Of a stretch of DNA of 34,904 bases, positions 11,232 to 28,172 are shown piece after piece. Position numbers and translations under genes: made by a program. This DNA comes from Desulfovirgula sp. (GTDB lineage Bacteria; Bacillota; Desulfotomaculia; Desulfotomaculales; Nap2-2B). The stretch is taken from positions 1 to 34,904 of the forward strand of contig DYES01000088.1 in the NCBI GenBank assembly GCA_020725585.1, given 5' to 3'. Under the pieces are notes generated by a model that was given only the letters and a program-made list of their open reading frames with translations, made no database searches and was not told the origin of the DNA. Each line of letters opens with the position of its first letter. Position 1 is the first letter of the stretch.

Positions 11232-12572
11232 TTAAGTTCTGAGCAATGCCGTCAGTTCGCGGATATCGGCCAGTTCTTCCACGCGCAGGCAGGCTTCCCG
11301 CAGTTGCCCCGCAGCCTTCGCGCCGATGACCTCGCCGGCCAGCTGGCGAAACTTTTCCAAAAGAGCTTCTCTCGGATAGGGATTATCGAACCCGCCCCGG
11401 GCAGAAAGAACGGTCTGGGAAAGGCAGCGGCCGTCCCGCAGGCAAAGAACGACCCTGGCCGGCCGCTTGCAGGGCAACATGGCCGACATTTCCGGGTTTT
11501 CCCGCACGGTAACTTTTCCGGCCAGTTCCCGGACCTGGGGATCACCAAGGGTTTCCTCTGTAAAGGAATGCGGGCCCACATGCCCCCGCACCAGGTATAC
11601 GGCCAGGGCAAAGGGGATAGAAAATTTGGCGGCCAGTGCGTTCGCCGGTCGGCGGTTGGCCAGCTGGGTTGCCAGCCCGTAGGTTTCTACCTCAATTCCT
11701 TCTACCTCTTCATAAGTTACTCTCTGGTTGGCCAGGATGGCCCCCAGGGCGTCCAGCGCGGCGTGGTTATAACGGCAGCACGAATATAGTTTAAAATAAT
11801 TACTGGTAATTTGATAGACGCTTCCCAGATCCCGGGTAAGCTTCTCCAGCTCGAAGCCGGAGGAAAGGACCTGTCCGAATACCGTCTCTACGGCTTCCTC
11901 GCCTCCCCGGAACCCGGCCAGGTAAAAATCCGTCGCCAGCAAACCCAGATGATTGCTCAGCCCGGTGTAGAGGTTGCGGACCGTTGCTCCAGCCACCGCC
12001 GCCTGCCAGGTGGTCGCCAGAGAAAACGAAGCTCCCAACTGGATGACTCCGGGGATGTCGGAAGCCGGGAAATTGCGCAATTTAGCCACCGCTACCGCCG
12101 CACCGACGGCCCCCCAGGTTCCGTGCGGATGCACTTCCGGGCGCAACGACGCGGCGGCGCCTATCCGAGCGGCTACCTCGTAGCCGACCACCACGCTTTC
12201 CAGTAACCGGCCACCGCTCACTCCCTCCTGTTCGGCCCAGGCCAGGGCCGCCGGAATAACGTGAGCGGCAGGATGTCCCTTGGCAAACTGGTTTCCTTCA
12301 TCCATCTCCAGGGCCACCAGGGAAGTGCCGTTAACCAGCGCCGCCCAACAGGGAGCCACCAGGTCGGGATATCCGGCAACGGTTGCCGCGGCTCTTCCCG
12401 CTGCTTTTTTACTCCAGAGCACAAGATTGGGCACCGGATCGGTCCGGCTGCCCGCCAGCATTGCCCCCAGGCTGTCCAGCAGCACTAGCTTCGCCTGGTC
12501 AAGAACCGCTTCAGGAAATTTTTCCAGGCCCGTTCGTCCAACAAAATCGGCAACCCGATCCCAAGCTTTCAT
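11232..12572 (-). CDS. MmgE/PrpD family protein
   Basis: The MmgE/PrpD family includes 2-methylcitrate dehydratase, cis-aconitate decarboxylase and iminodisuccinate epimerase, all acting on small di- or tricarboxylates without an Fe-S cluster. The 446 residues show the family layout. An N-terminal helical domain has LDSLGAMLAGS (about residues 34-44) and ALEMDEGNQFAKGHPAAHVIPAALA (about residues 97-121), and further family blocks follow (HPHGTWGAVGAAVA; SSCCRYNHAALDAL-like). I set the start at the ATG 12572, with GAGGGGG 8-9 bases upstream; a longer frame to 12614 would include that ribosome site. It lies downstream of a broken MFS gene in the same operon. Dehydratase, isomerase or decarboxylase action on a pathway dicarboxylate is likely, but the reaction cannot be fixed. 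Confidence 0.88.
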   Translation of the reverse strand: MKAWDRVADFVGRTGLEKFPEAVLDQAKLVLLDSLGAMLAGSRTDPVPNLVLWSKKAAGRAAATVAGYPDLVAPCWAALVNGTSLVALEMDEGNQFAKGHPAAHVIPAALAWAEQEGVSGGRLLESVVVGYEVAARIGAAASLRPEVHPHGTWGAVGAAVAVAKLRNFPASDIPGVIQLGASFSLATTWQAAVAGATVRNLYTGLSNHLGLLATDFYLAGFRGGEEAVETVFGQVLSSGFELEKLTRDLGSVYQITSNYFKLYSCCRYNHAALDALGAILANQRVTYEEVEGIEVETYGLATQLANRRPANALAAKFSIPFALAVYLVRGHVGPHSFTEETLGDPQVRELAGKVTVRENPEMSAMLPCKRPARVVLCLRDGRCLSQTVLSARGGFDNPYPREALLEKFRQLAGEVIGAKAAGQLREACLRVEELADIRELTALLRT

Positions 12573-12617
12573 TTTTTTCGACCCCCTCAAGGCTTTTTTG
12601 CTTACCCTGGGCACTTT

Positions 12618-13007
12618 TTAACCCTCAGGCATATCTCTCCTATTTTTTGAAAAAAAACCCAGGCCGACGCCGTGACACAATCTGGCCAGCACCAGTAAAA
12701 GAATCCATTTGCTCCCGGCATAGAGCAAGATGACTAGCCCGGCAAGTGCCGCGCCCGTCAGCATCAGCAAGCGCCTGTTTTTAAAATCTGCTAAAACACC
12801 GGAGGAAAACTTCAACAAAATAATCGCCAGGGATGTGACCACTATCACGAGATCGACCACGGCTTCGTTGCAACCCCAGCTGGCTATATACAACGGCAAT
12901 ACGGGCACCAGGAAGTAATAACCGGAAAAAACAAGGAAGGTTGCCGCCGAAACCAAAAGAAAATTTTTTATGCTGTTCGGATTGTAATCACCGCCCTGGT
13001 TAACCAG
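12618..13007 (-). pseudogene. Truncated MFS transporter (N-terminal third)
   Basis: The frame encodes the first three or four helices of a major facilitator (FLVFSGYYFLVPVLPLYI; SGVLADFKNRR as the loop 2-3 motif; LCHGVGLGFFS as the start of helix 4). It then stops after an unrelated short tail. The open frame extends upstream of the first TTG (12956) to 13007, where a CTG with GAAGGGG would give MVNQGGDYN as N-terminus. About 270 residues of a normal transporter are missing, and nothing between here and the MmgE/PrpD gene restores them. It is not a copy of the intact MFS at 9720, since the two N-termini differ clearly. A deletion within the operon is the simplest account. Confidence 0.72.
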
Positions 13008-13064
13008 TTAGAGCCCCTTCTTTCGCGCTCCGTTGAAGGTGGGCCACCAGATTGAACAGATCAG

Positions 13065-13631
13065 CTAGCTAGCCGAGCGCTCAATTATTTCCTTTAATTT
13101 TGCCGCCACTTCTTGGGGCGACTTGCCCGGGGTGTTTCGCCGGTCGCTTACTTCCAGTCGTTCGGCTTTTACTCCGCATTGCTCCATTAAGGTGAAGAGA
13201 ACTTCAAAAAATGTCCCCATCCCATCAACCAAGCCCAAGGGGGGCAAGTCCTGATTGGGGTATCCGCCGGGCCAGTCCGTGGCTGAAGTTTTAAATATGC
13301 CGCACGTGGGGCTGCCCTCAATGCCTACGGCAGCAAGAATTTGATAGCCCGCCTTCTGGTATTCGGCCAGGTCAGCGATAATGGGTTCCAGTTCTTTCCT
13401 CGCCCGTCTCTGGTAGGAAGGAGTAGCAAACTGCTTCTGAGTGCCCGCCCAACGGTGGACTCCGAAATGAGTGGTTTCCACGCACGGCAGCTGGACAATT
13501 CCCACGCCGGACTCAACCAATACTTTTACCACGTCCGTGATTGCTCCCGAATGGGAAGCGGATCCCCGCACCCGGGCATTCTGGTTTAAGATGCAGTGCG
13601 CCAGCAGGACGATTTTTTTACTTCTCTTCAT
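13065..13631 (-). CDS. TudS-related putative desulfidase (DUF523-like)
   Basis: The opening LLAHCILNQNARVRG is typical of the CD3072-type branch of TudS-related proteins. TudS (thiouracil desulfidase) uses a [4Fe-4S] cluster held by three cysteines to strip sulfur from thio-heterocycles. Three cysteines in the expected places are visible: Cys13 (HCILN), Cys50 (LPCVE) and Cys110 (SPTCGIF). The length is 188 residues and AGGAGG lies 9 bases before the ATG. It sits between the unrecognised 276-residue protein and a broken MFS gene in the catabolic operon. Desulfuration of a sulfur-bearing ring or cofactor is suggested by family only; the substrate is unknown. Confidence 0.8.
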   Translation of the reverse strand: MKRSKKIVLLAHCILNQNARVRGSASHSGAITDVVKVLVESGVGIVQLPCVETTHFGVHRWAGTQKQFATPSYQRRARKELEPIIADLAEYQKAGYQILAAVGIEGSPTCGIFKTSATDWPGGYPNQDLPPLGLVDGMGTFFEVLFTLMEQCGVKAERLEVSDRRNTPGKSPQEVAAKLKEIIERSAS

Positions 13632-13647
13632 AAAATGAAGCCTCCTT

Positions 13648-14478
13648 TTAGGTTCTATTGTCCCGCCTTGTGTAAATACATCCCATATGATTGCGGCAGA
13701 CCGGGCTTCCGCGCGCGCATTCCGGGAAAGTTTCGGACATACCGGGTGTGGCTGCGCCCTTGAGTTCCTGCGCCAGGGCGAAGGCCTTTTCCACTTCGGC
13801 AGGAGGTCCGCTGACGATCATGGTCGTGGCCCCTTCCGCCCCGAAAACGCCGCCTTTGGCAATCACGGTACAACGCACGTTATATAAAATAGAGAAGGCG
13901 TCAGGTTCCGTGATAATGCGCCCAACCAGCGGAACCAACCCTACCGCCATCCCCATGGCTTTTTCCGTACGGGCGCGCCCCGCCGCCCTGACCGCTTCGG
14001 CGATGCTCCCCGGAATTAACTTTTCCAACCCAACCGGAATAATTACATGGGCGCCCCCGGAAACAATCCCGGCAATCACTTCTCCGGGGGCGCCGCCCAA
14101 GACAGCGCCCAGCATAAGCGCAGCTCCCCCCTGGCTATCAATGGCGTTGGCACCGATAATCACCACATCTTCCGGCCCTAACCCGGAAACTATTTCCTTC
14201 AAACGGTCATCGACGTACTCTATCGCGCCTTTGCTCACCAATAGGCAGTGCTTCCCCGGAATATCGGCGCCGGTGGTCCTCGTTCCCCAGGGGCTTACGC
14301 GGCCGGATATTTTCAGCGGCGCGCCGGCGATCTCCTCCGCCACCGCCGAAACTGTAGTTCCCCCCTTAAACAGGACTTTCCCTTTCTCCAGAGCCGCCCT
14401 TACCTCTGGCAAGGCGGCCACTCCTTTGGCAATGAGGCGTTTGCCTTCCGAAACCGTTAAAGTTACCTGCACCTGCAA
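13648..14478 (-). CDS. Uncharacterised protein with alpha/beta glycine-rich repeats (276 aa)
   Basis: I do not recognise this family. The protein is alanine-, glycine- and valine-rich. An early KGGTTVSAVAEEI segment resembles the GTGST loop of NagB/RpiA/CoA-transferase folds. A central GPEDVVIIGANAIDSQGGAALMLGAVLGG and a GAHVIIPVGLEKLIP block follow. The last 30 residues hold three cysteines (ECARGSPVCRNHMGC). I took the TTG at 14478 as start because GGAGG lies 8 bases upstream; the GTG at 14487 is inside that ribosome site. It follows the enoate reductase by 18 bases and precedes the TudS-like gene, so it belongs to the catabolic operon. The C-terminal cysteines could bind metal or an Fe-S cluster with its neighbour. 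It was first considered as a barbiturase-type hydrolase, but the hallmark motifs are absent. Confidence 0.75.
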   Translation of the reverse strand: MQVQVTLTVSEGKRLIAKGVAALPEVRAALEKGKVLFKGGTTVSAVAEEIAGAPLKISGRVSPWGTRTTGADIPGKHCLLVSKGAIEYVDDRLKEIVSGLGPEDVVIIGANAIDSQGGAALMLGAVLGGAPGEVIAGIVSGGAHVIIPVGLEKLIPGSIAEAVRAAGRARTEKAMGMAVGLVPLVGRIITEPDAFSILYNVRCTVIAKGGVFGAEGATTMIVSGPPAEVEKAFALAQELKGAATPGMSETFPECARGSPVCRNHMGCIYTRRDNRT

Positions 14479-14496
14479 CCTGCCCACCTCCTCTGG

Positions 14497-16455
14497 TTAA
14501 ATTTCGCGCCCCACCAGGTGCCCTTCCCTGATCGCCTCCAGAGCGGAGCGGGGCGCCACGCAATCCCCGGCCGCGTATACTTTTACTCCCCGTTCCCGTA
14601 GGGCATGAAACAGCGCGTCGTCGGCCTGGCGTAGCCCTGCCACCACGATGCTGTCCACACCTTCCACTTCCCAGCGTCCGCCGGAATAAGCGTCTTCTAG
14701 GGTCACCGTGGAGCCGTTGACGGCCCGGATCACCGTCCCGGTAGTAATTTTCACGCCCAGGTTGCGCAGGCGATGATGCTGGGTTATCCAGCTGATCTGC
14801 ACGATATCCCCTCCTTCCACCGTCCGGGGAGTGACAATTTCCACCTGCTTTCCCTGGTCGGCCAGGAATTCGGCCACGCTGGTCGCCCGATAATGACCAT
14901 CGTCATCAAAGACAATCACCCGCCGGCCGACTTCCACCTTGCCCAGAGCCATATCGTTGGGAGTAACCAGTTGCACGCCGCCTGACCCTTCGTACTCCGG
15001 GAACACGGGGAAAGAACCGGTAGCCACGACAACGGCGTCCGGGTTTTCCGCGAGAACATCGTCTACCGTCGCCGCAACGCCCAGGCGTACCTCCACCCCC
15101 AGCCTCTTTAATTCCAGGCTTAAAAACCTGTAGGCCCCTCCGATCTCCTGACGGCACGGCACGCTGGCCGCGGCAATTAGTTGCCCGCCTAACGCGGGCC
15201 CTTTTTCAATCAGCATTACCCGGTGCCCCTGCAGGGCCGCCACCCGCGCCGCCTCCATTCCTGCAGGGCCGCCACCCACTACCAGCACTTTTTGTGGCCG
15301 GGAAACCTTCTGCAGTGTGCCGGCGCCCAGCTCCTTTTCCCTGCCCACGGTGGGGTTCTGCAGGCAGGTGATTGGAAAGCCGCGGTGCATCATGCCCACG
15401 CACCCTTGGTTGCAGCTGACGCAGTGCCTGATTTCGTCCAGCCTGCCCTCCCGGGCTTTATTGGGGAGCTCCGGATCGCAGATCGTTGCCCGGGTCATAC
15501 AAACTACATCCGCCCAGTGGTTGGCGATAATCTCGTCGGCCTGGAGGGGATCAATAATGCGCCCTACGGTAAAGACGGGAAGATCCCGAACCACCTGCTT
15601 GATTCCGGCGGCCAGGTAAACGAAGGGCGCCAGCGGAAAATGCATATCCGGAATCATCGTGGCAAAACTAAGACCGTTATAATTGCACTGGCTGACGTTG
15701 ATAAAATCCAGCTTTCCGGTGTCCACCAGCAAAGGAACAATTTCCTGCATATCGTTTAAGGCGAGTCCGCCGTCGCAAAACTCATCGCCGCTAATGCGCA
15801 TGCCTACGGCCAGTTCTGGTCCCGCCGCCTCCCGGACGGCGTCGATTACTTCCCGGGCAAAGCGGAGGCGATTTTCCAGGCTTCCGCCGTACTCGTCGGT
15901 GCGTCTGTTACTAAACGGCGAGAGAAACTGCTGGATCAAGTACCCATGGGCGCCGTGGATTTCTACCCCGTCGAATCCTGCTTCCCTGGCCAGGCCCGCG
16001 CTAAAGGCAAAACCGGCGATTACTTCCTGGATTTCTTCTTTCGTCATGGCGTGGGGAATTTCTTTTTTTGTCGGGCAGGGCAGCGCCGAGGGAGCCCACA
16101 GCGGCCGGTAGGTCTCCGTACTTACGGTCTGACGCCCCATGTGCAGAAGCTGCAGGAAAATTTTTGCCCCGTGCTGATGAACCATTTCTACAACCATTTT
16201 TAGCCCCGGCAACGAGCGCCGGTCATAACCGGCGATTGCCTTTGGCCCGGGGTGAGTGGTAGGGTGCACGCGGATGGCTTCCATAATAACCAACCCGATG
16301 CCGCCCTTGGCCTTTTCGGCCAGGTAGTAGGCGTGCCGTTCGGTGGGACACCCGCGCTCCCCAAAGTTGGTGACGTGGGCGGAGCTGGCGATGCGGTTGC
16401 GGATTACCACCGGGCCAATTTGCAAAGGCTGGAACAGGTTTTCACAACTACTCAT
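14497..16455 (-). CDS. Fe-S/FMN/FAD enoate reductase (2,4-dienoyl-CoA reductase/OYE-type), copy 1
   Basis: Reductases of this family use an N-terminal old-yellow-enzyme FMN barrel, a [4Fe-4S] cluster and a C-terminal FAD/NAD(P)H module to reduce activated C=C bonds. Visible parts, with Met at 16455 as residue 1: the substrate-binding HGAHGYL (residues 167-173), RRTDEYGGS (185-192), the cluster cysteines 345, 348, 352 and 364 (CVSCNQGC then PITC), and the Rossmann loop VVGGGPAGMEAA near 396. The size is 652 residues, normal for the family. I chose the ATG at 16455 because GGGGGG lies 6 bases before it and a hairpin occupies the possible longer N-terminus. A second copy lies in the same operon. 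Its substrate is likely an unsaturated acid, imide or enoyl thioester; this is inference. Confidence 0.93.
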   Translation of the reverse strand: MSSCENLFQPLQIGPVVIRNRIASSAHVTNFGERGCPTERHAYYLAEKAKGGIGLVIMEAIRVHPTTHPGPKAIAGYDRRSLPGLKMVVEMVHQHGAKIFLQLLHMGRQTVSTETYRPLWAPSALPCPTKKEIPHAMTKEEIQEVIAGFAFSAGLAREAGFDGVEIHGAHGYLIQQFLSPFSNRRTDEYGGSLENRLRFAREVIDAVREAAGPELAVGMRISGDEFCDGGLALNDMQEIVPLLVDTGKLDFINVSQCNYNGLSFATMIPDMHFPLAPFVYLAAGIKQVVRDLPVFTVGRIIDPLQADEIIANHWADVVCMTRATICDPELPNKAREGRLDEIRHCVSCNQGCVGMMHRGFPITCLQNPTVGREKELGAGTLQKVSRPQKVLVVGGGPAGMEAARVAALQGHRVMLIEKGPALGGQLIAAASVPCRQEIGGAYRFLSLELKRLGVEVRLGVAATVDDVLAENPDAVVVATGSFPVFPEYEGSGGVQLVTPNDMALGKVEVGRRVIVFDDDGHYRATSVAEFLADQGKQVEIVTPRTVEGGDIVQISWITQHHRLRNLGVKITTGTVIRAVNGSTVTLEDAYSGGRWEVEGVDSIVVAGLRQADDALFHALRERGVKVYAAGDCVAPRSALEAIREGHLVGREI

Positions 16456-16484
16456 CCAAAACCCCCCATTTTTTAGGAACAAGA

Positions 16485-16512
16485 GCGGTACGCCCCAAAC
16501 GGGGAGTACCGC
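16485..16512 (-). promoter_or_regulatory. Intercistronic hairpin upstream of enoate reductase copy 1
   Basis: GCGGTAC and GTACCGC pair over 7 bases, extended after one mismatch by CCCC/GGGG with an AAAC loop. It lies between the hydantoinase stop and the reductase ribosome site. There is no clean T-tract after it on the minus strand, so RNA processing, stabilisation or partial attenuation is more likely than full termination. Confidence 0.5.
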
Positions 16513-16572
16513 CTGCCCGAAAACCAGGTTTTCCCACGGCAATTCGTCTTTCCGGGGACAGCCGATCCTACC

Positions 16573-17958
16573 CTACACGTTCCGCTTCAAGTAGCGGCCC
16601 CGTCCCTTGGAACCGGTCACCCGGTCCTTTTCCATGATAATTTCGCCGCGGCTGACGGTAAACACGGGCCACCCTTTCAGCTTCATCCCGTCGTAAACCG
16701 AGTAATCGCTGGCCCCGAATATTTCCGGCTTGACTTCCCGTTCCCAATCGAGGTCCACGATGGCCAGATCCGCGTCGGCCCCCACCTTAATGGCCCCCTT
16801 TTGCGGATACAGATGGAATGCTTTCGCCACCGCGGCGCTGGTCACCTCAGCAATTGTTTCCAGGGAGATCCCCCGGCGATGGTAGCCTTCGCTGATCAAG
16901 ACAGGTAGAATCATCCCCGCGCTCGGGAATCCCGGGAGGGTTTCCCACACCCCGCTGCCCTTGCTAAATTTCTTGGCCAGGTTGCTTGGGCAATTGTCTG
17001 AGCCTATCGTCTGGATCAGGCCTTTACGGATGCCCTCCCAGAGTTTTTCCGCGTCGGCGGCGGTATGAATGGGCGGGTTAACTTTGCCCAGCAGGCCGCA
17101 GGGGGATTCTTCGGTCAGTGCGAGGTAATGAGGGCAGGTTTCCACTGTCACTCCCGAACTGGCTAACTCCGCTTCTTTCTCCAGCAAATCCACGCTTGAA
17201 CCGGCGCTTAGATGAACTACGTACATATTGCCCCCGGCGATCTTGTTCAAGTAAAGCGCACTCATTAAAGAAACAGTTTCTACGTAATCGGGGCTGGTCT
17301 GCGCAAAGTAGCGGAGGGAATTCTCGCTGCCTCGCGCTTTCACTTCCCTGGCGATCTTGCGCTGCAAATCCATATCCTCGCAATGCACGCACAGCAACAG
17401 TTTGTCGGAAATGGCCGCAAACTGCTGTAAAATCTCCATCATGTCCGCAGAATCGAGTGTCAGGGGATCGGAAACCCCGAAGATGCGGGCCACATCATCC
17501 TGGTAGTTGCGGTAAAACTTGTAAGAGGTAATCCCGAACTTCTCGATATACGTCTCCACTTCCGCCAGATGTTGCTTGGTAAGCAGGCCCAGGCTAAAGG
17601 CAAAGTCTATATAGCTGTTTGCTTCGCCCGCGGCAATCAGCCCCGGGGCGGTTTCCTGGTAAGATTCTTTGCCCCGGTAATAGTTTACGATGGAAGTAAT
17701 TCCGCCAATGGCACAGGCCCTTGTCTCTGCCTCGAAATCCACCGCTAGATCGTTATAGATGCCAATATGAACGTGCGGGTCAATTGCCCCTGGAAAAATG
17801 TACAACCCGGAGGCGTCCAGGGAGGCTTCCGCTTCGGGCCCCGCGCCTGGAGCATAGATACCCACAATCTTGCCGCCCGCCACGCCGATGTCCGCCCTAT
17901 CCACGCCTACCCCGGGAATTACCGCGTAGCCGTTTTTAACCAGCAGGTCAATTGCCAT
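16573..17958 (-). CDS. Dihydropyrimidinase/hydantoinase-family cyclic amide hydrolase
   Basis: This family opens cyclic amides and imides (dihydropyrimidines, hydantoins, succinimide-type rings, allantoin) with a binuclear metal centre. With Met at 17958 as residue 1 the ligands are all visible: His62 and His64 (PHVHIG), the lysine that is carboxylated, Lys147 (TSYKFYRN), His192 (VHCED), His249 (VVHLSAG) and Asp321 (IGSDNCP). Length is 461 residues, normal. AGGAGG lies upstream of the ATG. It is encoded directly after an isochorismatase-type amidase, the classic pairing of ring opening followed by hydrolysis of the linear amide or carbamoyl product. The protein is therefore catalytically competent by motif; whether the ring is a hydantoin, pyrimidine or cyclic imide cannot be settled. 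Confidence 0.93.
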   Translation of the reverse strand: MAIDLLVKNGYAVIPGVGVDRADIGVAGGKIVGIYAPGAGPEAEASLDASGLYIFPGAIDPHVHIGIYNDLAVDFEAETRACAIGGITSIVNYYRGKESYQETAPGLIAAGEANSYIDFAFSLGLLTKQHLAEVETYIEKFGITSYKFYRNYQDDVARIFGVSDPLTLDSADMMEILQQFAAISDKLLLCVHCEDMDLQRKIAREVKARGSENSLRYFAQTSPDYVETVSLMSALYLNKIAGGNMYVVHLSAGSSVDLLEKEAELASSGVTVETCPHYLALTEESPCGLLGKVNPPIHTAADAEKLWEGIRKGLIQTIGSDNCPSNLAKKFSKGSGVWETLPGFPSAGMILPVLISEGYHRRGISLETIAEVTSAAVAKAFHLYPQKGAIKVGADADLAIVDLDWEREVKPEIFGASDYSVYDGMKLKGWPVFTVSRGEIIMEKDRVTGSKGRGRYLKRNV

Positions 17959-17970
17959 CCTTCTCACCTC

Positions 17971-18660
17971 CTACTTTCTCAGGCTCTGAAAGTAATCTAG
18001 AACCTTTTGGGTATTAATCACATCGCAGTACTTCATCCAGAGGTCCAGCAGGGAAGCTTTGTGGGAAAGTTGAATGCGGTCGTACACCGCGTCCTCCACC
18101 ATGGCGACGTTATAGCTGCGGCTCACCGCGTCCACCGCGGTCGCCCGGCAGCACCCGCTGGTTGAACCCCCCACGATGATGATGGTATCAATGCCCAGCT
18201 TGATCAGGTAGCTCTGGATGGGCGTGCCGTAAAATACGCTGGCGTACGCCTTGTCGATGACAATTTCATCATCCCCGGGTTCAAGCTCCTTAATGATCTG
18301 GGTTTCCGGCCTGCCGTCCAAAAATTTGGATTGATCCCGGTCGGTTTTTAAACTAAAACCGTCAAAAGCCAGGGTTCTCTTCTGCACGTTGCGGGTGAAA
18401 AACACCGGCACACCCGCCTCCTTGGCGGCCGCCCTGATCCTCTGGATGTTGCGGACCGCCGCCCAGGCGCTGGCGCCGCCCCCGGCCGGCCACCTCTCCA
18501 GTTGCTGCTCGATGGGCAGGTCTTCGCCCACATAGTTATACTGGACGTCGATGATCAACAGCAGCGGTTTTTTGCCAAGGCCCCTGCTCTTCCCGTAACC
18601 TCCCTTTTGAATTACCAGACGATCTACTTCCGAGAGTAGATCTTCCCATATTCTTGCCAT
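17971..18660 (-). CDS. Isochorismatase-family amidohydrolase (N-carbamoylsarcosine/maleamate amidase-like)
   Basis: Cysteine hydrolases of this family cleave linear amides such as N-carbamoylsarcosine, maleamate, biuret and nicotinamide. The triad is clear: Asp38 (LLIIDVQ), Lys137 (VIDKAYASVFYGT) and Cys170 (STSGCCRAT), the last being the nucleophile that normally reads SGCVRA. Length is 229 residues. The basic GYGKSRGLGKKP before the first strand is like that of carbamoylsarcosine and maleamate amidases. AGGAGG lies 7 bases ahead of the ATG. The hydantoinase starts 12 bases after its stop, so the two are expressed together and probably act in sequence on one substrate, releasing ammonia or ammonia plus CO2. 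Confidence 0.9.
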   Translation of the reverse strand: MARIWEDLLSEVDRLVIQKGGYGKSRGLGKKPLLLIIDVQYNYVGEDLPIEQQLERWPAGGGASAWAAVRNIQRIRAAAKEAGVPVFFTRNVQKRTLAFDGFSLKTDRDQSKFLDGRPETQIIKELEPGDDEIVIDKAYASVFYGTPIQSYLIKLGIDTIIIVGGSTSGCCRATAVDAVSRSYNVAMVEDAVYDRIQLSHKASLLDLWMKYCDVINTQKVLDYFQSLRK

Positions 18661-20655: not shown

Positions 20656-20717
20656 CTCCTTAAAAACCTCCTCTTTTTGGCAAGTGGACCGCAACACTAT
20701 TTAATCCAGCCAAAAGA

Positions 20718-21230
20718 TCAGCCGCCCTTATTTTTATTTTTTGCTATTTCGCGCTCCAGGTAAGGCACCAGCCCTCCGGCGTTCAAGATCTCCATCACGT
20801 GCGCAGGCAGGCGGGTGGCTTGGTACGCGGTACCCCGGGTAAGGTTTTTAACTACACCGTGTTTCAAATCTATTTCCAGCTCGTCACCGGTCGCTACCTC
20901 GTCTGCCTGCGGACATTCCAGCACGGGCAGGCCGAGGTTTACGGCGTTGCGGAAGAAAATCCTCGCGAAAGAACGGGCTACCACCGCTCCCACCCCGGCG
21001 TATTTAATGGCCGCCGGGGCGGTTTCCCGGCTGGAACCGCAACCAAAATTGCTTCCTCCCACGATGATATCTCCCGGTTGAATTTTTTTGGGCAGTTCTG
21101 GATCGATCCCTTCCATCACGTGCCGGGCCATTTCCTGGTTGGACAGCTTTAAATACTTGCCGGGAGCGATTAAATCGGTGTTTACGTTGTCCCCAAATTT
21201 CCATGCTCTTCCCCGGATCGCATCAGGCAT
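20718..21230 (-). CDS. Aconitase-family hydro-lyase, small subunit (LeuD/DmdB-like)
   Basis: This is the swivel-domain subunit of a two-part hydro-lyase of the isopropylmalate/homoaconitate/dimethylmaleate type. The 170 residues show WKFGDNVNTDLIAPGKYL near the start and the substrate-gripping GGSNFGCGSSRE (59-70), both hallmarks of the small subunit. It starts 5 bases after the large-subunit stop with GTGAGGA upstream. No leuA, leuB or leuC-type biosynthetic partner lies nearby; instead a PEP-mutase-family lyase and enoate reductases flank the pair. A catabolic hydratase, such as dimethylmaleate or maleate hydratase, is therefore more likely than leucine synthesis. Confidence 0.9.
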   Translation of the reverse strand: MPDAIRGRAWKFGDNVNTDLIAPGKYLKLSNQEMARHVMEGIDPELPKKIQPGDIIVGGSNFGCGSSRETAPAAIKYAGVGAVVARSFARIFFRNAVNLGLPVLECPQADEVATGDELEIDLKHGVVKNLTRGTAYQATRLPAHVMEILNAGGLVPYLEREIAKNKNKGG

Positions 21231-21235
21231 ATTCC

Positions 21236-22498
21236 TCACTCCTCCAAATAGACGCGGGGATCGACAATTTTCCCGGCCAGGGCGGAGGCGGCCACCGTCG
21301 CTGGGGAAGCCAGGAAAACTTCGGCCTCTGGGCTCCCCATCCGACCTTGAAAGTTCCTGTTGGTAGAGGCCACGCATCTCTCCCCCGGGGCAAGGATACC
21401 ATTGCTCAGGCCCGCGCAAGGCCCACAGGCAGGGGGCAAAATGGTGGCTCCCGCCTCCACCAGGATGGCCAGTACCCCATCTGCGGCGGCGCGCCGGAGA
21501 ATCTCACGCGAAGCCGGCGCAACCAAAAAACGCACCCCCGGCGCAACCCGGCGACCGCTGACCACTCGCGCCGCCGCCGCCAGATCGCTGTACTTGCCGC
21601 CTGTGCAGGCGCCGATCAGCGCCTGCTGCACGGGCAACTCCGGCAAGGAAGCCGCTTTCTCCACGTTATCCGGGCTGTGCGGACAGGCAACAAGGGGCTC
21701 CAACTCCTCTGCCCGGCAGCGAATAACCTGGCTGTAGCACGCGTCCGGATCGCTAAACAGCGGGGAATACTCGACGCAGGTGCGTTGGGCCAGATATGCA
21801 AAGACCGTTTCGTCAGGTTCAATAATGCCGGTTTTTGCTCCCATTTCGATGGTCATGTTAGTAAGCACGATGCGCTCATCGATATTTAACCGGCGCACCG
21901 TATCCCCGGTGAATTCAACCACCTTGTAAGTAGCCCCTTCCAGGCCCAGCTGTTTAATGTTGTATAAAATCATATCCTTGGCAGACGTGGCGGGAGGCAA
22001 ATTTCCTTCCCAGACAATCTTAATGGTCTCCGGCACCTTCAGCCAAACGCTCCCCTTCACCAGAACACCCAGCATGTCGGTGGAGCCAAGGGCAATGGCC
22101 AGCGCCCCCAACGCACCTCCCGTGCAGCTGTGCGAATCACCGCCCACCATTAAAGTCCCAGGCAAAACGTACCCTTTTTCAATAGGTACGATATGGCAAA
22201 TACCTTCGAGCTCGTGGTACTTTTGGATCCCTTGCCTTCTTACCCATTCCCGGGTAAGGGCGAGGATGCCGGCCTCAATGTCGTTGCAGGCGGGCACAAA
22301 GTGATCCGCCACCACTGTGACCCGGTCGCTGTTCCAAACACCGGTACCCAGGCGCTCCAGGTTGGCGGCAATGCGCCGGGGGCCGCCGGAATCGTTCATC
22401 ATCACCAGATCCACTTCTACCCAGATAATTTCCCCAGGTCTGACTTCACTTTTCCCGCTTGCCCGGGCAAGAATTTTTTCTGCAACCGTTTGGCCCAT
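21236..22498 (-). CDS. Aconitase-family hydro-lyase, large subunit (LeuC/DmdA-like)
   Basis: This is the catalytic [4Fe-4S] subunit partnering the small subunit encoded next. With Met at 22498 as residue 1, three cluster cysteines are visible: Cys298 (GACTGGK), Cys358 and Cys361 (PACGPCAG). The catalytic-site block VGGDSHSCTGGALG (118-131) and DHFVPA (65-70) are also in place. At 420 residues it has the archaeal/homoaconitase-like length, not that of enterobacterial LeuC (~466). The usual VMxHD is VMMND here, replacing a conserved histidine by Asn35, which suggests an altered substrate. AGGAGG lies 6 bases before the ATG. The gene follows the lyase gene directly, supporting hydration of an unsaturated dicarboxylate before C-C cleavage. 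Confidence 0.91.
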   Translation of the reverse strand: MGQTVAEKILARASGKSEVRPGEIIWVEVDLVMMNDSGGPRRIAANLERLGTGVWNSDRVTVVADHFVPACNDIEAGILALTREWVRRQGIQKYHELEGICHIVPIEKGYVLPGTLMVGGDSHSCTGGALGALAIALGSTDMLGVLVKGSVWLKVPETIKIVWEGNLPPATSAKDMILYNIKQLGLEGATYKVVEFTGDTVRRLNIDERIVLTNMTIEMGAKTGIIEPDETVFAYLAQRTCVEYSPLFSDPDACYSQVIRCRAEELEPLVACPHSPDNVEKAASLPELPVQQALIGACTGGKYSDLAAAARVVSGRRVAPGVRFLVAPASREILRRAAADGVLAILVEAGATILPPACGPCAGLSNGILAPGERCVASTNRNFQGRMGSPEAEVFLASPATVAASALAGKIVDPRVYLEE

Positions 22499-22540: not shown

Positions 22541-23407
22541 TCATTCCTGCATGTAGCGCTTTTCCAGCTGTTGCATTTTATTTAACTCCACTAGTTCGTT
22601 GATTTCTTGAAAGGTAAACATGCGCTCCAAAAAGCCCCTGGTGGTTCCGGTGGCGTAAAGCTCCTGCATTACTTCGCTCACCGCGCGGGCCAGCGACCTG
22701 ATCGCCGTGTTGGGAAAAATGACGATTTTGTAACCGATTTGTTCCAGTTCCTGAACGGAGAGCAAGGGCGTTTTTCCGCCCTCCACCATGTTGGCCAGCG
22801 TAGGGACACGGATAGCCGAAGTAATCCGGCGCATTTCCTCTATAGATTCAGGGGCTTCCACAAAAATTACGTCGGCTCCGGCCTCCGCATAGGCGGCGGC
22901 TCGCTCTAACGCATCTTCCAGCCCGTTTACCGCCCGGGCATCAGTGCGGGCGATGACTACAAAATGATGATTGGTGCGGGCATCCAAGGCCGCCTTAATT
23001 TTCCCGACCATTTCCTGGCGAGAAATCAGTTGCTTACCCAGCAAATGCCCGCAGCGTTTCGGAAAGGCCTGGTCTTCCAGCTGGATGGCCGCCACCCCCG
23101 CCCTCTCATAAGCGCGTACGGTGCGCATCACGTTTAAAGCATTTCCGTAGCCGTTGTCTCCGTCCGCAATCACCGGAATGTTTACCGCGCTGCAAATATT
23201 CTCTGCCCGCGCGACCATTTCCGTCATGGTAATAAAGCCCATATCGGGCAGGCCCAGGGTGGTGAAGGAAACTCCCGCCCCGGTCAGGTACAAAGCCTGA
23301 AAGCCGGTCTTTTCAATAATTTTGGCCACCAACGCGTCGGCGGCTCCGGGCGCTACCAGAATGCCTTCCTTTGTCAATAAATCCCGCAGCTTCTTTGCCT
23401 GCAGCAC
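22541..23407 (-). CDS. Isocitrate lyase/PEP-mutase-family C-C lyase (methylisocitrate or dimethylmalate lyase-like)
   Basis: Members of this family cleave substituted malates or citrates to a 2-oxo acid plus a carboxylate, or act as phosphonomutases. The 288 residues show the metal-binding ADGDNGYG (81-88) and AAIQLEDQ (106-113). The catalytic-loop motif KRCGHLLGK (117-125) has Cys119, as in the lyase branch (2-methylisocitrate lyase and 2,3-dimethylmalate lyase) rather than the mutases. The start is GTG at 23407 with GGAGG 7 bases upstream. It sits between the ABC importer and the LeuCD-like hydratase. The pairing of a LeuCD-like hydratase with this lyase matches the end of nicotinate fermentation, which gives propionate and pyruvate. 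The exact substrate is not proven. Confidence 0.88.
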   Translation of the reverse strand: MLQAKKLRDLLTKEGILVAPGAADALVAKIIEKTGFQALYLTGAGVSFTTLGLPDMGFITMTEMVARAENICSAVNIPVIADGDNGYGNALNVMRTVRAYERAGVAAIQLEDQAFPKRCGHLLGKQLISRQEMVGKIKAALDARTNHHFVVIARTDARAVNGLEDALERAAAYAEAGADVIFVEAPESIEEMRRITSAIRVPTLANMVEGGKTPLLSVQELEQIGYKIVIFPNTAIRSLARAVSEVMQELYATGTTRGFLERMFTFQEINELVELNKMQQLEKRYMQE

Positions 23408-23451
23408 TGGAAAACCTCCCTTGAAACAGGAATCAAGAACCAGCTCGAACT

Positions 23452-24156
23452 CTACATTCCCAGATAGGCTTTTTTCAGGTGCTCGTTGCGCAACAATTCA
23501 TGACCCGTGCCATGGAGAACCACCTTACCCTGCTCAAGAACGTAGCCCCGGTCCGCCATGTTTAACGCGTGGTGCACGTTTTGTTCAACCAGCAAAACGG
23601 TTACACCCTGTACTTTAATCTGCTTGATGGTTTCAAACATGGTCTGCGTGAGCAAGGGCGAGAGCCCTATTGAAGGCTCGTCTAAGATGAGCAGCCTGGG
23701 GTTGGCCATCAGACCGCGTCCGATCGCCAGCATCTGCTGCTGGCCGCCGCTCAAAGTACCGGCCCTCTGCTTAATTTTTGCTTTTAAATCCGGAAACAAA
23801 TTAAAAACTCTTTCCAGATTGGCTTTTTTGTGGGGCTTAGCGGCTTTGGGATAAGCGCCCATCTCCAGGTTTTCTAGTACCGAAAGGTGGGGGAAGAGTT
23901 TTCTGCCTTCAGGCACCTGCACCAACCCGCGCGCAACGATTTGGTAGGGTTCGAGATTATTAATTTTTTCGCCCACAAACTCAATGGTTCCGCTCTTTGT
24001 CCTTAACAGCCCGGAAACGGTTTTTAAAAGGGTCGTCTTTCCTGCTCCGTTCGCCCCCACAAGAGAAACCAACTCCCTTTCCTTAACTTCCAGGTCCAGG
24101 CCGCGGATGACCAGAATGTCGCCGTATCCTGCGCTAAGTCCGGATATCTTAAGCAA
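23452..24156 (-). CDS. livF: ABC transporter ATP-binding protein LivF
   Basis: This is one of two ATPases of a branched-chain amino-acid-type (HAAT) importer. It has the Walker A GANGAGKTTLLK (34-45), the LSGGQQQ signature (about residue 135), and Walker B LLILDEPSIGLSP. The 234-residue length and the switch region HHALNMADRGYVL are typical of LivF. The start is TTG at 24156 inside the livG end (8-base overlap), with GGAGGT 8 bases upstream. The lyase gene follows after 44 bases, tying transport and catabolism into one operon. HAAT importers also carry urea, amides and organic acids, so leucine need not be the substrate. Confidence 0.95.
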   Translation of the reverse strand: MLKISGLSAGYGDILVIRGLDLEVKERELVSLVGANGAGKTTLLKTVSGLLRTKSGTIEFVGEKINNLEPYQIVARGLVQVPEGRKLFPHLSVLENLEMGAYPKAAKPHKKANLERVFNLFPDLKAKIKQRAGTLSGGQQQMLAIGRGLMANPRLLILDEPSIGLSPLLTQTMFETIKQIKVQGVTVLLVEQNVHHALNMADRGYVLEQGKVVLHGTGHELLRNEHLKKAYLGM

Positions 24157-24874
24157 GCATGGCCACCTCCCCCAGGTAAGCCTCGATTACCTTTTGATTG
24201 GAAGATACTTCCTGGGGCGTGCCCTCGGCCAGCTTTTCGCCGTGGTGCATCACAAACACCCGGTCAGAGAGGTTCATTAAGGCATGCATGATGTGCTCAA
24301 TAATAAAAATAGTCACGCCGCTCTGTCTAATCTTCCTGATCAACTCCATCACTTCCGTAACCTCAGAGGGAGTGAGACCCGCCATCACTTCGTCCAGCAA
24401 CAAGAGCTTGGGCTGGGTGGCCAGGGCGCGCGCCAGCTCCAGGCGCCTCTGGTCGGCGATAGTCAACTCTTTTACGCGGATGTCTTTTTTTTCTGCCAAC
24501 CCCACAAAAACCAGCTTCTCCAAAGCCAGGCGCGCCGCCTGCGCGTACGGCCCGACCCGGTTAAAGGCGCCCACCATCACATTTTCCAAAGCGGAAAGAT
24601 TGCCAAAGGGCTTCACAATTTGAAACGTCCTGGCCAGGCCCCTCTGGCAAATGGTATGGGGGCCCAACCCCGTAATCTCCTGGCCGTCGAATATGATGGA
24701 CCCTCGGTCGGGGACATAAAATCCGGAAACAAGGTTAAAGAGGGTGGTTTTTCCGGCGCCGTTAGGGCCGATGAGTCCAAATATCTCTCCTTCGTTAACC
24801 TCTAAAGAAATATCCTTTACCGCCATTAATCCTGAAAACGATTTATTTACCTGCTGAACGACGAGCAACGGCAC
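24149..24874 (-). CDS. livG: ABC transporter ATP-binding protein LivG
   Basis: This is the second ATPase of the importer. Walker A GPNGAGKTTLFN (about 36-47) and Walker B KLLLLDEVMAGLTP are both clear, with a signature variant ELTIADQRRLELARAL in place of LSGGQ. That variant is normal for LivG, which has the TxxxQRRLEIARAL form. Length is 241 residues. The GTG start touches the livM stop (TAG then GTG). The C-terminal extension (EGTPQEVSSNQKVIEAYLG) is as in other LivG proteins. Confidence 0.95.
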   Translation of the reverse strand: MPLLVVQQVNKSFSGLMAVKDISLEVNEGEIFGLIGPNGAGKTTLFNLVSGFYVPDRGSIIFDGQEITGLGPHTICQRGLARTFQIVKPFGNLSALENVMVGAFNRVGPYAQAARLALEKLVFVGLAEKKDIRVKELTIADQRRLELARALATQPKLLLLDEVMAGLTPSEVTEVMELIRKIRQSGVTIFIIEHIMHALMNLSDRVFVMHHGEKLAEGTPQEVSSNQKVIEAYLGEVAMLA

Positions 24875-25912
24875 CTAAAAGCCCCCCTTTTTAACCCCGG
24901 GTTTGTTTTCGACAACGGTCGTCCTGCGCTTGAAGATAATCCGGCGGCGCCAGACTTTTTGAAGAAGCCCGACGATACCCTCAGGAAGGTAAATAATCAC
25001 CACAATAATAATTAACCCGTACACGATCATGCTGATCCCGCTGGAAAGCAGGCCGCGTGTCAGTTCGGCAATCGGCGTAAGGACCAGTGCACCCACCACC
25101 GGCCCCCAGACTGTGCCCACCCCGCCGATAATGGCCGGTGTCAGGATGTTTACGGAAACAGCGGTGCCAAAGGCAAGTTCTGGATCGAGATAGGAATAAA
25201 ATTGGGCGTAAAACGTTCCCCCGAGAGCAGTCAAAAAAGCGCTGATGCTAACCGCAATCAGTTTATATTTAAAAGAGTTGACCCCCATGGCCTCGGCCGC
25301 TTCTTCGTTTTCCCGGATGGCCACCAGGTATAAGCCGAGTTTCGAGCTGCCCAGTTTATAGACCAGAAAAGTAATCAAGGCAGCCATCACGAGAATTACG
25401 TAGTAGTAATGAACTGTTTCCGGAAATTGAAAATTGGCCGGTTTGTTGCCGAGGGGAATAAGGATGCCCATGGCGCCGCCCACAAACCGCCAGTTGAGAG
25501 CGAGAACGCGTAAAATTTCGGCAAAAGCCAGGGTAGCCAGAGCAAAGTAATGGCCCTTGAGCTGGTAGCGAAAAGCCAGAAAACCTATAAAAAGACCCAT
25601 CAAAGCGGCCACCGCTCCGCCCGCGAACATTCCGACCCAGGGCGTAAGGCCGGCTTTAGTAAATAAAAGAGAAGAAGTATACGCACCCAAACCAAAAAAA
25701 GTAGCGTGACCAAACGAAAACTGACCCGCCAACCCGCTCATGATATTCCAGCATTGCGCCAGATAGATTCCGTAGGCGGTAATAATCAGCAGATTTAAAT
25801 AATAGGAATCAATCACCTGGGGCAAAAGTGCCGCCGCTAGTAAAGCCAACAGGGCCGCAGCAAGAGAAACGACCCGCTTTTTCTTTTTCGCAAGCGTCCT
25901 TGTCTCAGCCAT
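24875..25912 (-). CDS. livM: Branched-chain-type ABC permease LivM
   Basis: This is an inner-membrane permease of the HAAT importer with about nine hydrophobic segments and the family patterns LAQCWNIMSGLAGQFSFGHATFFGLGAY and GALVLTPIAELTRG. I chose the ATG at 25912 (345 residues), which overlaps the livH stop by 8 bases with GGAGGG upstream; a longer frame to 25981 lies inside livH. The KKKKR motif near the N-terminus fits the positive-inside rule. Confidence 0.94.
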   Translation of the reverse strand: MAETRTLAKKKKRVVSLAAALLALLAAALLPQVIDSYYLNLLIITAYGIYLAQCWNIMSGLAGQFSFGHATFFGLGAYTSSLLFTKAGLTPWVGMFAGGAVAALMGLFIGFLAFRYQLKGHYFALATLAFAEILRVLALNWRFVGGAMGILIPLGNKPANFQFPETVHYYYVILVMAALITFLVYKLGSSKLGLYLVAIRENEEAAEAMGVNSFKYKLIAVSISAFLTALGGTFYAQFYSYLDPELAFGTAVSVNILTPAIIGGVGTVWGPVVGALVLTPIAELTRGLLSSGISMIVYGLIIIVVIIYLPEGIVGLLQKVWRRRIIFKRRTTVVENKPGVKKGGF

Positions 25913-26783
25913 TGCTGCGCCCTCCTCCAAACAAACCGGTCGGCCTAACCAGCAAAATACCGACAAAAAGCAGATAGACAACCATCTCTTTTAGACTGCC
26001 GGGCAGAAGCAGCGCGCTTAGCGATTCGGTAAGGCCAATAATCAAACCACCTACCAAAGCGCCGCCAAAGTTGCCCAACCCACCGAGAATAGCCACCACA
26101 AAAGCCCGCAGGAGGAAAACGTGACCCACCCCGGGCGACACGAAGTAAAAAGGCATGATCAAAGAGCCCGCTGCCCCCGCACAAGCGGCGCCAATCCCGA
26201 AGGCAATTCCGTTAATGTGCCGAACGTTCACACCTACCAGGTGGGCCCCCTCCCTTTCCTGGGAGGCAGCCTGGATAGCCCTTCCAAGTTCGGTTTTCTT
26301 GAGAACATAATACAAGACGGCAGTAATCGCGAGAGTAAAAACAAAGGCAAGCAATCTCGGCTTATTCAAGACCACCGATCCCAATAAGATACCCTGCTCC
26401 AGCCACTCCACCTTAATTGACCGAAAGTCGGGGCTCCAAAGCACCAGGGCAAGATTTTCCAGAACCAGCATAATTCCGAGGGTTAAGAGAAGCTGGTTGT
26501 GCTGTGGCGCATTGAGAATAGGGTCGAGGAAAAATCTTTGCAGAATAAATCCGACTAAAAATAGAGCACATATACTGGCCAGGATACTCACATAAGGGTT
26601 GATTCCCAGAAGGGTAAACGCCCAGTAAGTCACATACATGCCTAACATCATAAGAGCGCCGTGGGCAAAATTTACGATCTGCATTACGCCGAAAATCAAG
26701 GTAAGCCCCACAGCGACCAGGCCGTAAACCCCTCCCATTAACAACCCGTCGGTAATTGCCTGAAAAATTGCACTGATGTTCAT
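25905..26783 (-). CDS. livH: Branched-chain-type ABC permease LivH
   Basis: This is the second permease, 292 residues, with the LivH pattern YGLVAVGLTLIFGVMQIVNFAHG near the N-terminus (about 20-42) and AFVVAILGGLGNFGGALVGGLIIGL near the C-terminus. GGAGG lies 7 bases before the ATG. A 150-base gap containing a hairpin separates it from livK. Confidence 0.95.
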   Translation of the reverse strand: MNISAIFQAITDGLLMGGVYGLVAVGLTLIFGVMQIVNFAHGALMMLGMYVTYWAFTLLGINPYVSILASICALFLVGFILQRFFLDPILNAPQHNQLLLTLGIMLVLENLALVLWSPDFRSIKVEWLEQGILLGSVVLNKPRLLAFVFTLAITAVLYYVLKKTELGRAIQAASQEREGAHLVGVNVRHINGIAFGIGAACAGAAGSLIMPFYFVSPGVGHVFLLRAFVVAILGGLGNFGGALVGGLIIGLTESLSALLLPGSLKEMVVYLLFVGILLVRPTGLFGGGRSNG

Positions 26784-26847
26784 TATTTTCCTCCGTTTCC
26801 GAACAGGTGACCCCCCGACAAAAACCGCGGCTTTGGTCCGATTGACG

Positions 26848-26880
26848 GTGCGGAGCGGAACTTACCGGCCCGCCCCGCAC
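26848..26880 (-). promoter_or_regulatory. Hairpin between livK and livH
   Basis: GTGCGGAGCGG and CCGCCCCGCAC form an 11-bp stem with one mismatch and an 11-base loop. It is in the gap after livK, without a T-tract on the minus strand. Such hairpins after a binding-protein gene often stabilise its message and let it outnumber the permeases; that role here is inference. Confidence 0.45.
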
Positions 26881-26933
26881 TCAGTCCTTTTATTGCTATT
26901 CTTGCTTTTTTACGCAGCACTCTTAAGCAATGT

Positions 26934-28172
26934 TTATTGCTGCGGCATAGGGAAGATTAGTTTTGCTTCCGCGTATTCTCCAGGGTACACGACGAGCTTC
27001 TTACCGTTTTGGATTTGGGTAATTACTCCAGCTGCGTTAACGTTTTCGCCAGCCTCATTAAACCTGATCTCTTTGTTTGGCAAAATGTGGTCGGCAAAGT
27101 TTGTTTTGGTCAAAGCCTCCCTGATTTTTTCCTTATCAGTGGAGCCCGCCCGCTCCAGAACATCCGCGATCAGCTTGCCTACTACATAACCGTAGACGGC
27201 GTGACTGCTCAACGGCGAACCGTATTTTTGCTGGTATTTCTCCATCACTTCTTTAGACTTGGAATTCTTCGGGTTGTGGCAGTAGTTCACGTCCATTATA
27301 TATTCCGCATCTTTACCCAGTTCATCGATAAATTTGGGGTCGCTGAAGGCACCGTTGGCAATTCCGATAATGGCCTTCACCTTTACCTTCTGTTCCTTCA
27401 AGGTCTTGACCATTAAGGTCTGGTCGCGGTAGTAACCGGTGCCGATCAAAATGTCCGGCTTGGCGGCAGCCACTTTGTTAATCTCCGCGGTAAGGTTGGG
27501 ACTCTGGTTCGAATACGGTACACGCGCCACCAGTTTTAGTCCGGTTTCCCCGATGTGTTTTTCGATGTAGTCGGCAAAAGTAGTTCCAAACAAGGTATCC
27601 TCATGCATTATCGCGGCCGTTTTAATATCGGGGGTAACCAGTTCCTTCATATAGTCGATGAAATTTTTAGCAAAAACGTTGGCGTTTGGTTGTACGCGGA
27701 AACTATACTTGAATCCCCGTTCTAAAATGTTCGGAGCAGAAGCGATAGTAACCACAAAAGGTGTTTTTAGCTTTTCAGCTTCCTGAGTAGCTGCAAAGGT
27801 AGCACTGCTTGTATAGCATCCGGTAAGAATAACCGCTCCCTCTTTTACCAACCGCTGCACTTCCGTCACCGCTTTTTCCGGTGAACCCTGGTTATCGCCG
27901 TCAATTAATTTCAACTTGGCGCCGCCCAGGGATTTAATACCGCCGGCGGCGTTGACCTCTTCGAAGGCCAGCTCTAAAGCGTTACGGATGGCTTTGCCTT
28001 CATAGGCAAGATTTCCAGTTAACGGGTGAATAGCGCCGATTTTAATTTCGGTTGCCTGCTGGCCGGCTTTGCCGCTTTCCTTTGGCTTCTCCTTGGTTCC
28101 GCAACCCGCCAGCAAAGTCCCTGCCAACAGCAGGGAGACAAAAAAAGACACTAATCTGAAAGCTTTCGACAT
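26934..28172 (-). CDS. livK: Branched-chain-type substrate-binding lipoprotein LivK
   Basis: This is the extracellular binding protein of the importer. A 23-residue signal ends in the lipobox LLAGC (Cys24). The periplasmic-binding-protein type 1 fold follows, with IKIGAIHPLTGNLAYEGKAIRNALELA and DGDNQGSPEKAVTEVQRLV. Length is 412 residues. AGGAGG lies 9 bases before the ATG. It is the first gene of the import and catabolic operon, about 160 bases after iclR. Sequence alone cannot tell amino acid from amide or organic acid ligands. Confidence 0.94.
   Translation of the reverse strand: MSKAFRLVSFFVSLLLAGTLLAGCGTKEKPKESGKAGQQATEIKIGAIHPLTGNLAYEGKAIRNALELAFEEVNAAGGIKSLGGAKLKLIDGDNQGSPEKAVTEVQRLVKEGAVILTGCYTSSATFAATQEAEKLKTPFVVTIASAPNILERGFKYSFRVQPNANVFAKNFIDYMKELVTPDIKTAAIMHEDTLFGTTFADYIEKHIGETGLKLVARVPYSNQSPNLTAEINKVAAAKPDILIGTGYYRDQTLMVKTLKEQKVKVKAIIGIANGAFSDPKFIDELGKDAEYIMDVNYCHNPKNSKSKEVMEKYQQKYGSPLSSHAVYGYVVGKLIADVLERAGSTDKEKIREALTKTNFADHILPNKEIRFNEAGENVNAAGVITQIQNGKKLVVYPGEYAEAKLIFPMPQQ

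Follow-up and report, generated by a model that had tools for sequence, protein, structure and literature searches.

A conserved gene cluster in Desulfovirgula with a predicted role in cyclic-imide catabolism

Which compound is degraded by a run of genes that joins a hydantoinase-family ring hydrolase, an amidase, a LeuCD-like hydro-lyase and a carbon–carbon lyase? The question is raised by a locus in Desulfovirgula sp. (assembly GCA_020725585.1), a bacterium described as a spore-forming anaerobe. The locus lies on contig DYES01000088.1, and the whole analysed stretch of 34,904 nucleotides is called the window here. An original prediction, made from the DNA letters, proposed that the genes import and degrade a cyclic imide. 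Open reading frame (ORF) and protein-family scans of the window recover every gene that it named, intact, in the order that it gave and all on the minus strand. The locus is probably an operon that serves the breakdown of a five-membered cyclic imide, likely one with alkyl substituents, and we assign this reading a probability of roughly 0.55. The reactions, the direction of the flavoprotein steps and the substrate are predicted from gene content, linkage, conservation and residue patterns.

The five-gene core and its relatives

Five genes form the core of the cluster and are listed in the order of their transcription.

22541..23407, minus strand: lyase of the phosphoenolpyruvate (PEP)-mutase/isocitrate lyase (ICL) superfamily (PF13714; TIGR02317 prpB), a predicted 2,3-dialkylmalate-type lyase
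21236..22498, minus strand: LeuC, large subunit of a LeuC-like hydro-lyase (NF001614, 537.8 bits), a predicted alkylmaleate hydratase
20718..21230, minus strand: LeuD, small subunit of the LeuD-like hydro-lyase (TIGR02087, 197.3 bits)
17971..18660, minus strand: ISO, isochorismatase-family amidase (PF00857), a predicted half-amide (maleamate-type) amidohydrolase
16573..17967, minus strand: HYD, hydantoinase-family cyclic amidohydrolase (Amidohydro_1; below the TIGR02033 cut-off), a predicted imidase

The LeuD start is most likely near position 21230, because a longer LeuD ORF would overlap LeuC.

Searching 120 relatives for hydantoinases and scanning 84,980 species genomes yields a small set of close HYD relatives, most of which sit in clusters with the same partner genes. 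All five core genes are found together in the window and at loci L019, L020, L021, L107, L023, L025 and L026, with a more distant set at L110. The cluster at L019, from the same genus, has nearly the whole gene set. Paradesulfitobacterium ferrireducens (L020) and a Clostridiales metagenome-assembled genome (MAG; L021) also carry the core, as does Desulfallas sp. Bu1-1 (L023). The gene order in Desulfallas is IclR-ETF-OYE2-LeuCD-lyase-MFS-ISO-HYD, where ETF is an electron-transfer flavoprotein, OYE2 an old yellow enzyme (OYE)-type flavoprotein and MFS a major facilitator superfamily transporter. Two Acidobacteriota MAGs (L025 and L026) share the order ISO-HYD-LeuC-LeuD-lyase. A separate ISO search of 399 genomes of the phylum gave a further full cluster (L107, genome G222), in which ETF genes lie between LeuD and OYE2, and the divergent five-gene set at L110 (genome G135; 42% identity for ISO, 38% for HYD). 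ISO identity is 71-90% in the near clusters and 56-58% in Acidobacteriota. Rokubacteria (L027), Actinobacteria (L032) and Roseovarius confluentis (L033) have looser variants of the cluster, and the ends of the cluster in a Moorellales MAG (L024) are cut by its contig.

ISO and the lyase co-occur in 8 of the 80 hydantoinase-family loci (12 carry ISO and 9 the lyase; Fisher p = 1.5e-7, a value that is optimistic because the loci are related and not independent). The grouping of the core genes is more than chance, since they turn up together in other genera and in a second phylum. The original prediction had suggested a search for the same gene set elsewhere, and the set recurs in several members of the Bacillota and in two MAGs of the Acidobacteriota. 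The cluster is a real, conserved catabolic module.

Other neighbourhoods differ. At L022 (= L014), in a Desulfotomaculum MAG, ISO and HYD lie at a contig edge, and genes for a TRAP transporter, a further amidohydrolase and a deaminase come after them. Upstream of the core set at L025 are two tandem genes of the Asp/Glu/hydantoin racemase family (982-2525), with a polar-amino-acid-type importer. At L111, ISO is found beside LeuCD and a dehydrogenase that resembles isopropylmalate dehydrogenase at its start; this locus was set aside as another context, together with L108, L109 and L112, where ISO occurs without the rest.

In the predicted route, a Liv-type importer would bring in the imide or its saturated form, and an OYE-type dehydrogenase would introduce the ring double bond, passing electrons to ETF. 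HYD would then open the maleimide ring to a half-amide, from which ISO would free ammonia to leave a cis-enedioate (an alkylmaleate). LeuCD would hydrate this product to a 2-hydroxydiacid, and the PrpB-like lyase would split the latter into a 2-oxo acid, such as pyruvate, and a carboxylate, such as propionate or butyrate. The core steps form a closed route in which each product would feed the next enzyme, from HYD to ISO to LeuCD to the lyase, with no missing enzyme, and this supports the assignment. The original prediction gave the same order from imide to cleavage. That order is plausible and is now better supported, because the five genes are linked, their LeuC forms a separate clade and the lyase has lost Arg270 and Thr212; the part that changes is the redox chemistry, which is probably oxidative.

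Ring opening, hydration and cleavage

HYD has a complete binuclear metal site (H65, H67, K150, H195, H252 and D324) and carries SDN where most relatives carry SDH. Its nearest solved relatives are hydantoinases, and its TIGR02033 score is 252.7 bits against a cut-off of 393.25. The hydantoinase family includes a Pseudomonas aeruginosa dihydropyrimidinase that acts on phthalimide (PMC4437985), and a passage of the same paper cites a fish imidase that acts on maleimide. By analogy, this precedent supports HYD as a predicted imidase. At L019, a second HYD that is 47% identical lies directly after the MmgE gene (15857-17233) and perhaps serves a second ring substrate.

Residues D38, K137, C170 or C171, and R195 of ISO are invariant in four members, and the protein has the D-K-C pattern with a downstream DR motif. 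It shares this motif with maleamate and N-carbamoylsarcosine amidohydrolases, its nearest solved relatives, and forms a group separate from them. The closest is N-carbamoylsarcosine amidohydrolase (26st, 8.8e-27), followed by 3ot4 (1.1e-21) and 3uao, which are deposited as putative isochorismatases. We take 3uao to be the Bordetella maleamate amidohydrolase. The known or presumed substrates of these relatives are small amides that bear a carboxylate, which by analogy supports a predicted half-amide substrate.

The LeuCD-like pair might have been an isopropylmalate isomerase (IPMI), a finding that the original prediction had named as one that would count against it. However, in a LeuC tree the proteins from the window, L019, L020, L021, L107, L025 and L026 form one clade (100/99) that spans Bacillota and Acidobacteriota and lies outside the IPMI clade. 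Two further LeuC-family genes occur in the genome, one on contig C8 beside a LeuD with a YLNT loop and a more divergent copy on contig C31, and the C8 protein groups with the IPMIs of the order. A role in leucine biosynthesis was rejected on these grounds. The LeuD specificity loop of the window reads YLKL, and more distant members have FLAD, FLVL or YLIG, as compared with YLVY in MJ IPMI, YLRT in MJ homoaconitase (2pkp) and YLNT in the other LeuD of the genome. Homoaconitase identity was also rejected, because the YLRT loop is absent from the window and from the other members compared. The LeuC proteins of L023 and L110 fall outside the cluster clade, elsewhere in the tree, which suggests that a LeuC-type hydratase has been recruited more than once into this gene context.

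The lyase is the sole over-threshold member of its family in the assembly, and its best match in the PDB is petal death protein (1zlp), an alkylmalate-cleaving relative. In an alignment numbered by E. coli PrpB (MG1655 record), the residues of the superfamily pattern for carbon–carbon lyases are present: D58, D85, D87, E115, C123-G124-H125, R158, E188 and N210. By contrast, Arg270 is replaced by F, L or W and Thr212 by V in all cluster members except that of L110; the window has Phe and Val. Petal death protein shares both losses, with F and I at these positions. The pattern is consistent with an alkyl substituent on the predicted substrate in place of a carboxymethyl group. Identity as 2-methylisocitrate lyase (PrpB) was rejected, given a TIGR02317 score of 341.3 bits, below the cut-off of 354.4, and the loss of the two residues in the window and its close relatives. 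The L110 lyase keeps Arg270 but lacks His125 and Asn210 of the PrpB pattern, and the L110 set, with this altered lyase, may serve a different substrate.

Several observations weigh against an imide substrate. HYD scores below the cut-off of every specific family, and the best solved match of ISO is an N-carbamoyl amidase rather than a maleamate amidase. Arg241 of PrpB is kept in the window lyase and in most members, and is absent from petal death protein. Arg270 and Thr212, which we take to be methylisocitrate ligands in E. coli PrpB, owe that role here to annotation rather than to a structure. L022 and L024 show no LeuCD or lyase, and both contigs end nearby. Finally, the two racemase-family genes beside the core at L025, and a gene at L110 whose start looks like that of a pyridoxal phosphate (PLP) enzyme, fit amino-acid-type chemistry.

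These observations bear most directly on a hydantoin or pyrimidine route, in which HYD would open a hydantoin (possibly substituted) or a dihydropyrimidine, ISO would remove the N-carbamoyl group to give an amino acid, and a diacid derived from it would be the substrate of LeuCD and the lyase. The solved hydantoinases nearest HYD, the likeness of ISO to N-carbamoylsarcosine amidohydrolase and the racemase-family genes at L025 are all as such a route would have it. However, the clusters share no conserved aminotransferase or ammonia-lyase, which would leave the amino acid unlinked to LeuCD and the lyase, whereas the imide route lacks no core step. HYD also falls short of the cut-offs for hydantoinase, dihydropyrimidinase and allantoinase and has SDN in place of the usual SDH, both of which argue against a hydantoin or pyrimidine. 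We regard this route as possible, with a minor share of the probability.

Flavoproteins and the remaining genes

The redox steps are assigned to four further genes.

30282..31310, minus strand: ETF alpha (Pfam ETF / ETF_alpha), with ETF beta the predicted electron acceptor of the OYE-type dehydrogenase or dehydrogenases
29337..30278, minus strand: ETF beta (Pfam ETF / ETF_alpha), predicted electron acceptor jointly with ETF alpha
18712..20697, minus strand: OYE2, Fe-S flavoprotein of the OYE/trimethylamine dehydrogenase (TMADH) type (Oxidored_FMN + Pyr_redox_2), a predicted ETF-linked dehydrogenase
14497..16542, minus strand: OYE1, a second OYE/TMADH-type Fe-S flavoprotein (Oxidored_FMN + Pyr_redox_2; below the TIGR03997 cut-off)

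OYE1 and OYE2 each have an OYE barrel, a Cx2Cx3Cx11C cluster motif and an FAD-type GxGxxG. In the second Rossmann domain, no GxGxxG for NAD(P)H is present; the corresponding site reads DKDYH in OYE2 and DDDGH in OYE1, and these motifs align with YDDDHY of histamine dehydrogenase and LNADTY of TMADH. Close orthologues keep the motif with small changes, such as RDWH at L027, and that of L033 is different. Domain order, the cluster motif, the degenerate second site and linkage to ETF are thus shared with TMADH and histamine dehydrogenase. The flavinylation cysteine of TMADH, in contrast, is absent from OYE1 and OYE2 as far as the alignment shows.

ETF genes lie within the cluster beside OYE2 or its replacement at L020, L021, L023, L024 and L107, and directly adjoin OYE2 in the last three. 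At L020 and L021, an FAD_binding_2 flavoprotein occupies the OYE2 position between ETF and ISO. EtfD-type CCG-domain Fe-S proteins are found at L020 and L027, with a 78% identical ORF at L021; an ORF of L107 in the EtfD-like position is recognised by its position and the start of its sequence alone. OYE1 scores 730.9 bits for TIGR03997, below the cut-off of 793.15, and no mycofactocin radical SAM protein (MftC) exceeds its cut-off in the genome, so a mycofactocin-associated OYE was rejected.

The original prediction called these proteins enoate reductases. As NAD(P)H-dependent enoate or maleimide reductases, they would make the operon one that reduces or detoxifies an unsaturated ring, and their best overall matches in the PDB, NCR (6qkg) and 2,4-dienoyl-CoA reductase, and family relatives such as bilirubin reductase and BaiCD, are consistent with that role. 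However, a reductive step would eliminate the double bond on which LeuCD depends, the acidic motifs of the second site extend to the orthologues, and ETF and EtfD-like genes are linked to the cluster, in which the flavoprotein of L020 and L021 replaces OYE2. Because of the degenerate nucleotide motif and the ETF linkage, OYE1 and OYE2 are more likely to be ETF-linked dehydrogenases, which might, for example, convert a saturated imide into a maleimide, and a reductive role seems unlikely. Thus the evidence points to oxidation, and the imported compound may be a saturated imide.

The remaining genes of the cluster are as follows.

28331..29188, minus strand: IclR-family regulator (Pfam HTH_IclR + IclR_C), also found at L020, L023 and L024
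26934..28172, minus strand: solute-binding protein of a hydrophobic amino acid (HAAT, Liv-type) importer (Pfam Peripla_BP_6)
25905..26783, minus strand: LivH-type permease (Pfam BPD_transp_2)
24875..25981, minus strand: LivM-type permease (Pfam BPD_transp_2)
24149..24874, minus strand: LivG-type ATPase (Pfam ABC_tran + BCA_ABC_TP_C)
23452..24156, minus strand: LivF-type ATPase (Pfam ABC_tran)
13648..14487, minus strand: conserved 279-amino-acid (aa) protein (no Pfam or NCBIfam match), adjoining OYE1 in the near clusters
13065..13631, minus strand: TudS-related (CD3072 family) putative desulfidase, accessory (NF045597, TudS_rel_CD3072, 151 bits against a cut-off of 130)
12618..12956, minus strand: MFS fragment (112-aa ORF; partial MFS_1)
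11232..12614, minus strand: MmgE/PrpD-family protein (PF03972 + PF19305), a possible alternative hydratase

Transcription would proceed through ETF alpha, ETF beta, IclR, the solute-binding protein, LivH, LivM, LivG, LivF and the lyase, and then through LeuC, LeuD, OYE2, ISO, HYD, OYE1, the 279-aa protein, the TudS relative, the MFS fragment and MmgE/PrpD. The genes from IclR to the TudS relative are closely packed, with no gap longer than about 150 bp and several neighbours that overlap or almost touch; the importer block spans 28172 down to 23452. The upstream IclR and ETF beta/alpha genes are assigned to the module by their conservation. The flanking genes are ordinary: those for spore germination, SpoVR, Ku and DNA ligase lie beyond one end, and beyond the other are genes for a CoA-transferase and an AMP-binding enzyme.

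Two members of the cluster, the TudS relative and the 279-aa protein, are regarded as accessory. At L019, the former has a match of just 23 N-terminal residues. The gene for the 279-aa protein, which the original prediction omitted, is also found at L019, L020 (where it is broken), L021 and L107, and homologues occur in 107 of the 399 genomes of the phylum. Its predicted structure has low confidence (mean pLDDT 49.5), and Foldseek returned no match under E 0.001. In some genomes (L162-L164), neighbours of this family look by eye like DUF917, DUF1177, AroM and Asp/Glu-racemase proteins, names that were not checked by search. The MFS ORF matches the first ~100 positions of MFS_1 and looks like the remnant of a transporter. 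Because it separates MmgE from the TudS gene, MmgE may lie outside the transcript of the main run.

MmgE/PrpD genes are also found at L019, L027 and L107, and MmgE is present while LeuCD is absent in the Rokubacteria cluster L027; MmgE could be an alternative hydratase. It also recalls the methylcitrate cycle, which the original prediction had kept as an alternative: MmgE/PrpD would dehydrate methylcitrate, LeuCD would make methylisocitrate and PrpB would cleave it, with HYD and ISO as bystanders. The lyase is indeed nearest to prpB in NCBIfam, and a gene with a citrate synthase domain follows the cluster in the same-genus relative. However, MmgE matches the PrpD families weakly (49 bits against a cut-off of 950), the window has no citrate synthase, and HYD and ISO are linked to LeuCD and the lyase more tightly than MmgE is. 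With Arg270 and Thr212 lost in all close cluster members, this variant is very improbable.

Relation to known systems and significance

The last steps of nicotinate fermentation in Eubacterium barkeri use a LeuCD-type hydratase, DmdAB, followed by an ICL-superfamily lyase, Dml, and yield pyruvate and propionate. The likeness is in the succession of hydratase and lyase, compared at the level of enzyme family. In E. barkeri the enedioate comes from nicotinate by way of methyleneglutarate and methylitaconate, whereas here it is predicted to come from an imide through HYD and ISO. That the cluster is itself the lower part of nicotinate fermentation (dimethylmaleate hydratase and dimethylmalate lyase) is the least probable explanation, because, despite these two shared families, the genome (assembly 83% complete) has no PrpF/methylitaconate-isomerase homologue, domain scans of the clusters find no other gene of that route, and HYD and ISO would play no part in it.

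Cyclic-imide metabolism by an imidase and a half-amidase, and the HxnM/HxnN steps of fungal nicotinate catabolism, likewise proceed from imide to half-amide to amide hydrolysis. HxnM and the cyclic imide hydrolase of Pseudomonas putida YZ-26 are related and structurally resemble the HP0310/PuuE group (PMC9304392). Unlike HYD, these imidases are not of the hydantoinase type, and no LeuCD or lyase follows there. Riboflavin degradation, raised by a literature match, was dropped, as no shared genes were named. The original prediction considered the gene combination unreported, and no description of it was found in the literature searched, which misses most subscription journals. The cluster thus appears to combine known enzyme families into an undescribed pathway, with novelty that is provisional.

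Dialkylmaleimides derived from chlorophyll or heme fit chemically as substrates. Senescent leaves and lake sediments are reported to contain maleimides and hematinic acid (PMC7318184), and maleimides produced by the oxidation of fossil chlorophylls serve as a palaeo-redox index (PMC9620498). More tentatively, the cluster might be a dedicated route in anaerobic Bacillota and in Acidobacteriota for such decay products, including ethylmethylmaleimide, methylvinylmaleimide and hematinic acid. ETF-linked oxidation of the ring and hydrolysis would then give 2-ethyl-3-methylmaleate, whose hydration and cleavage would release pyruvate and butyrate, or 2-oxobutyrate and propionate.

If the imide reading is correct, the cluster would name the genes of a complete catabolic route for cyclic imides and would provide markers for imide turnover in sediments and soils. 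It would also be a source of new imidases, alkylmaleate hydratases and alkylmalate lyases. Microbial consumption of free maleimides would, in turn, bear on how maleimide palaeo-signals are read.

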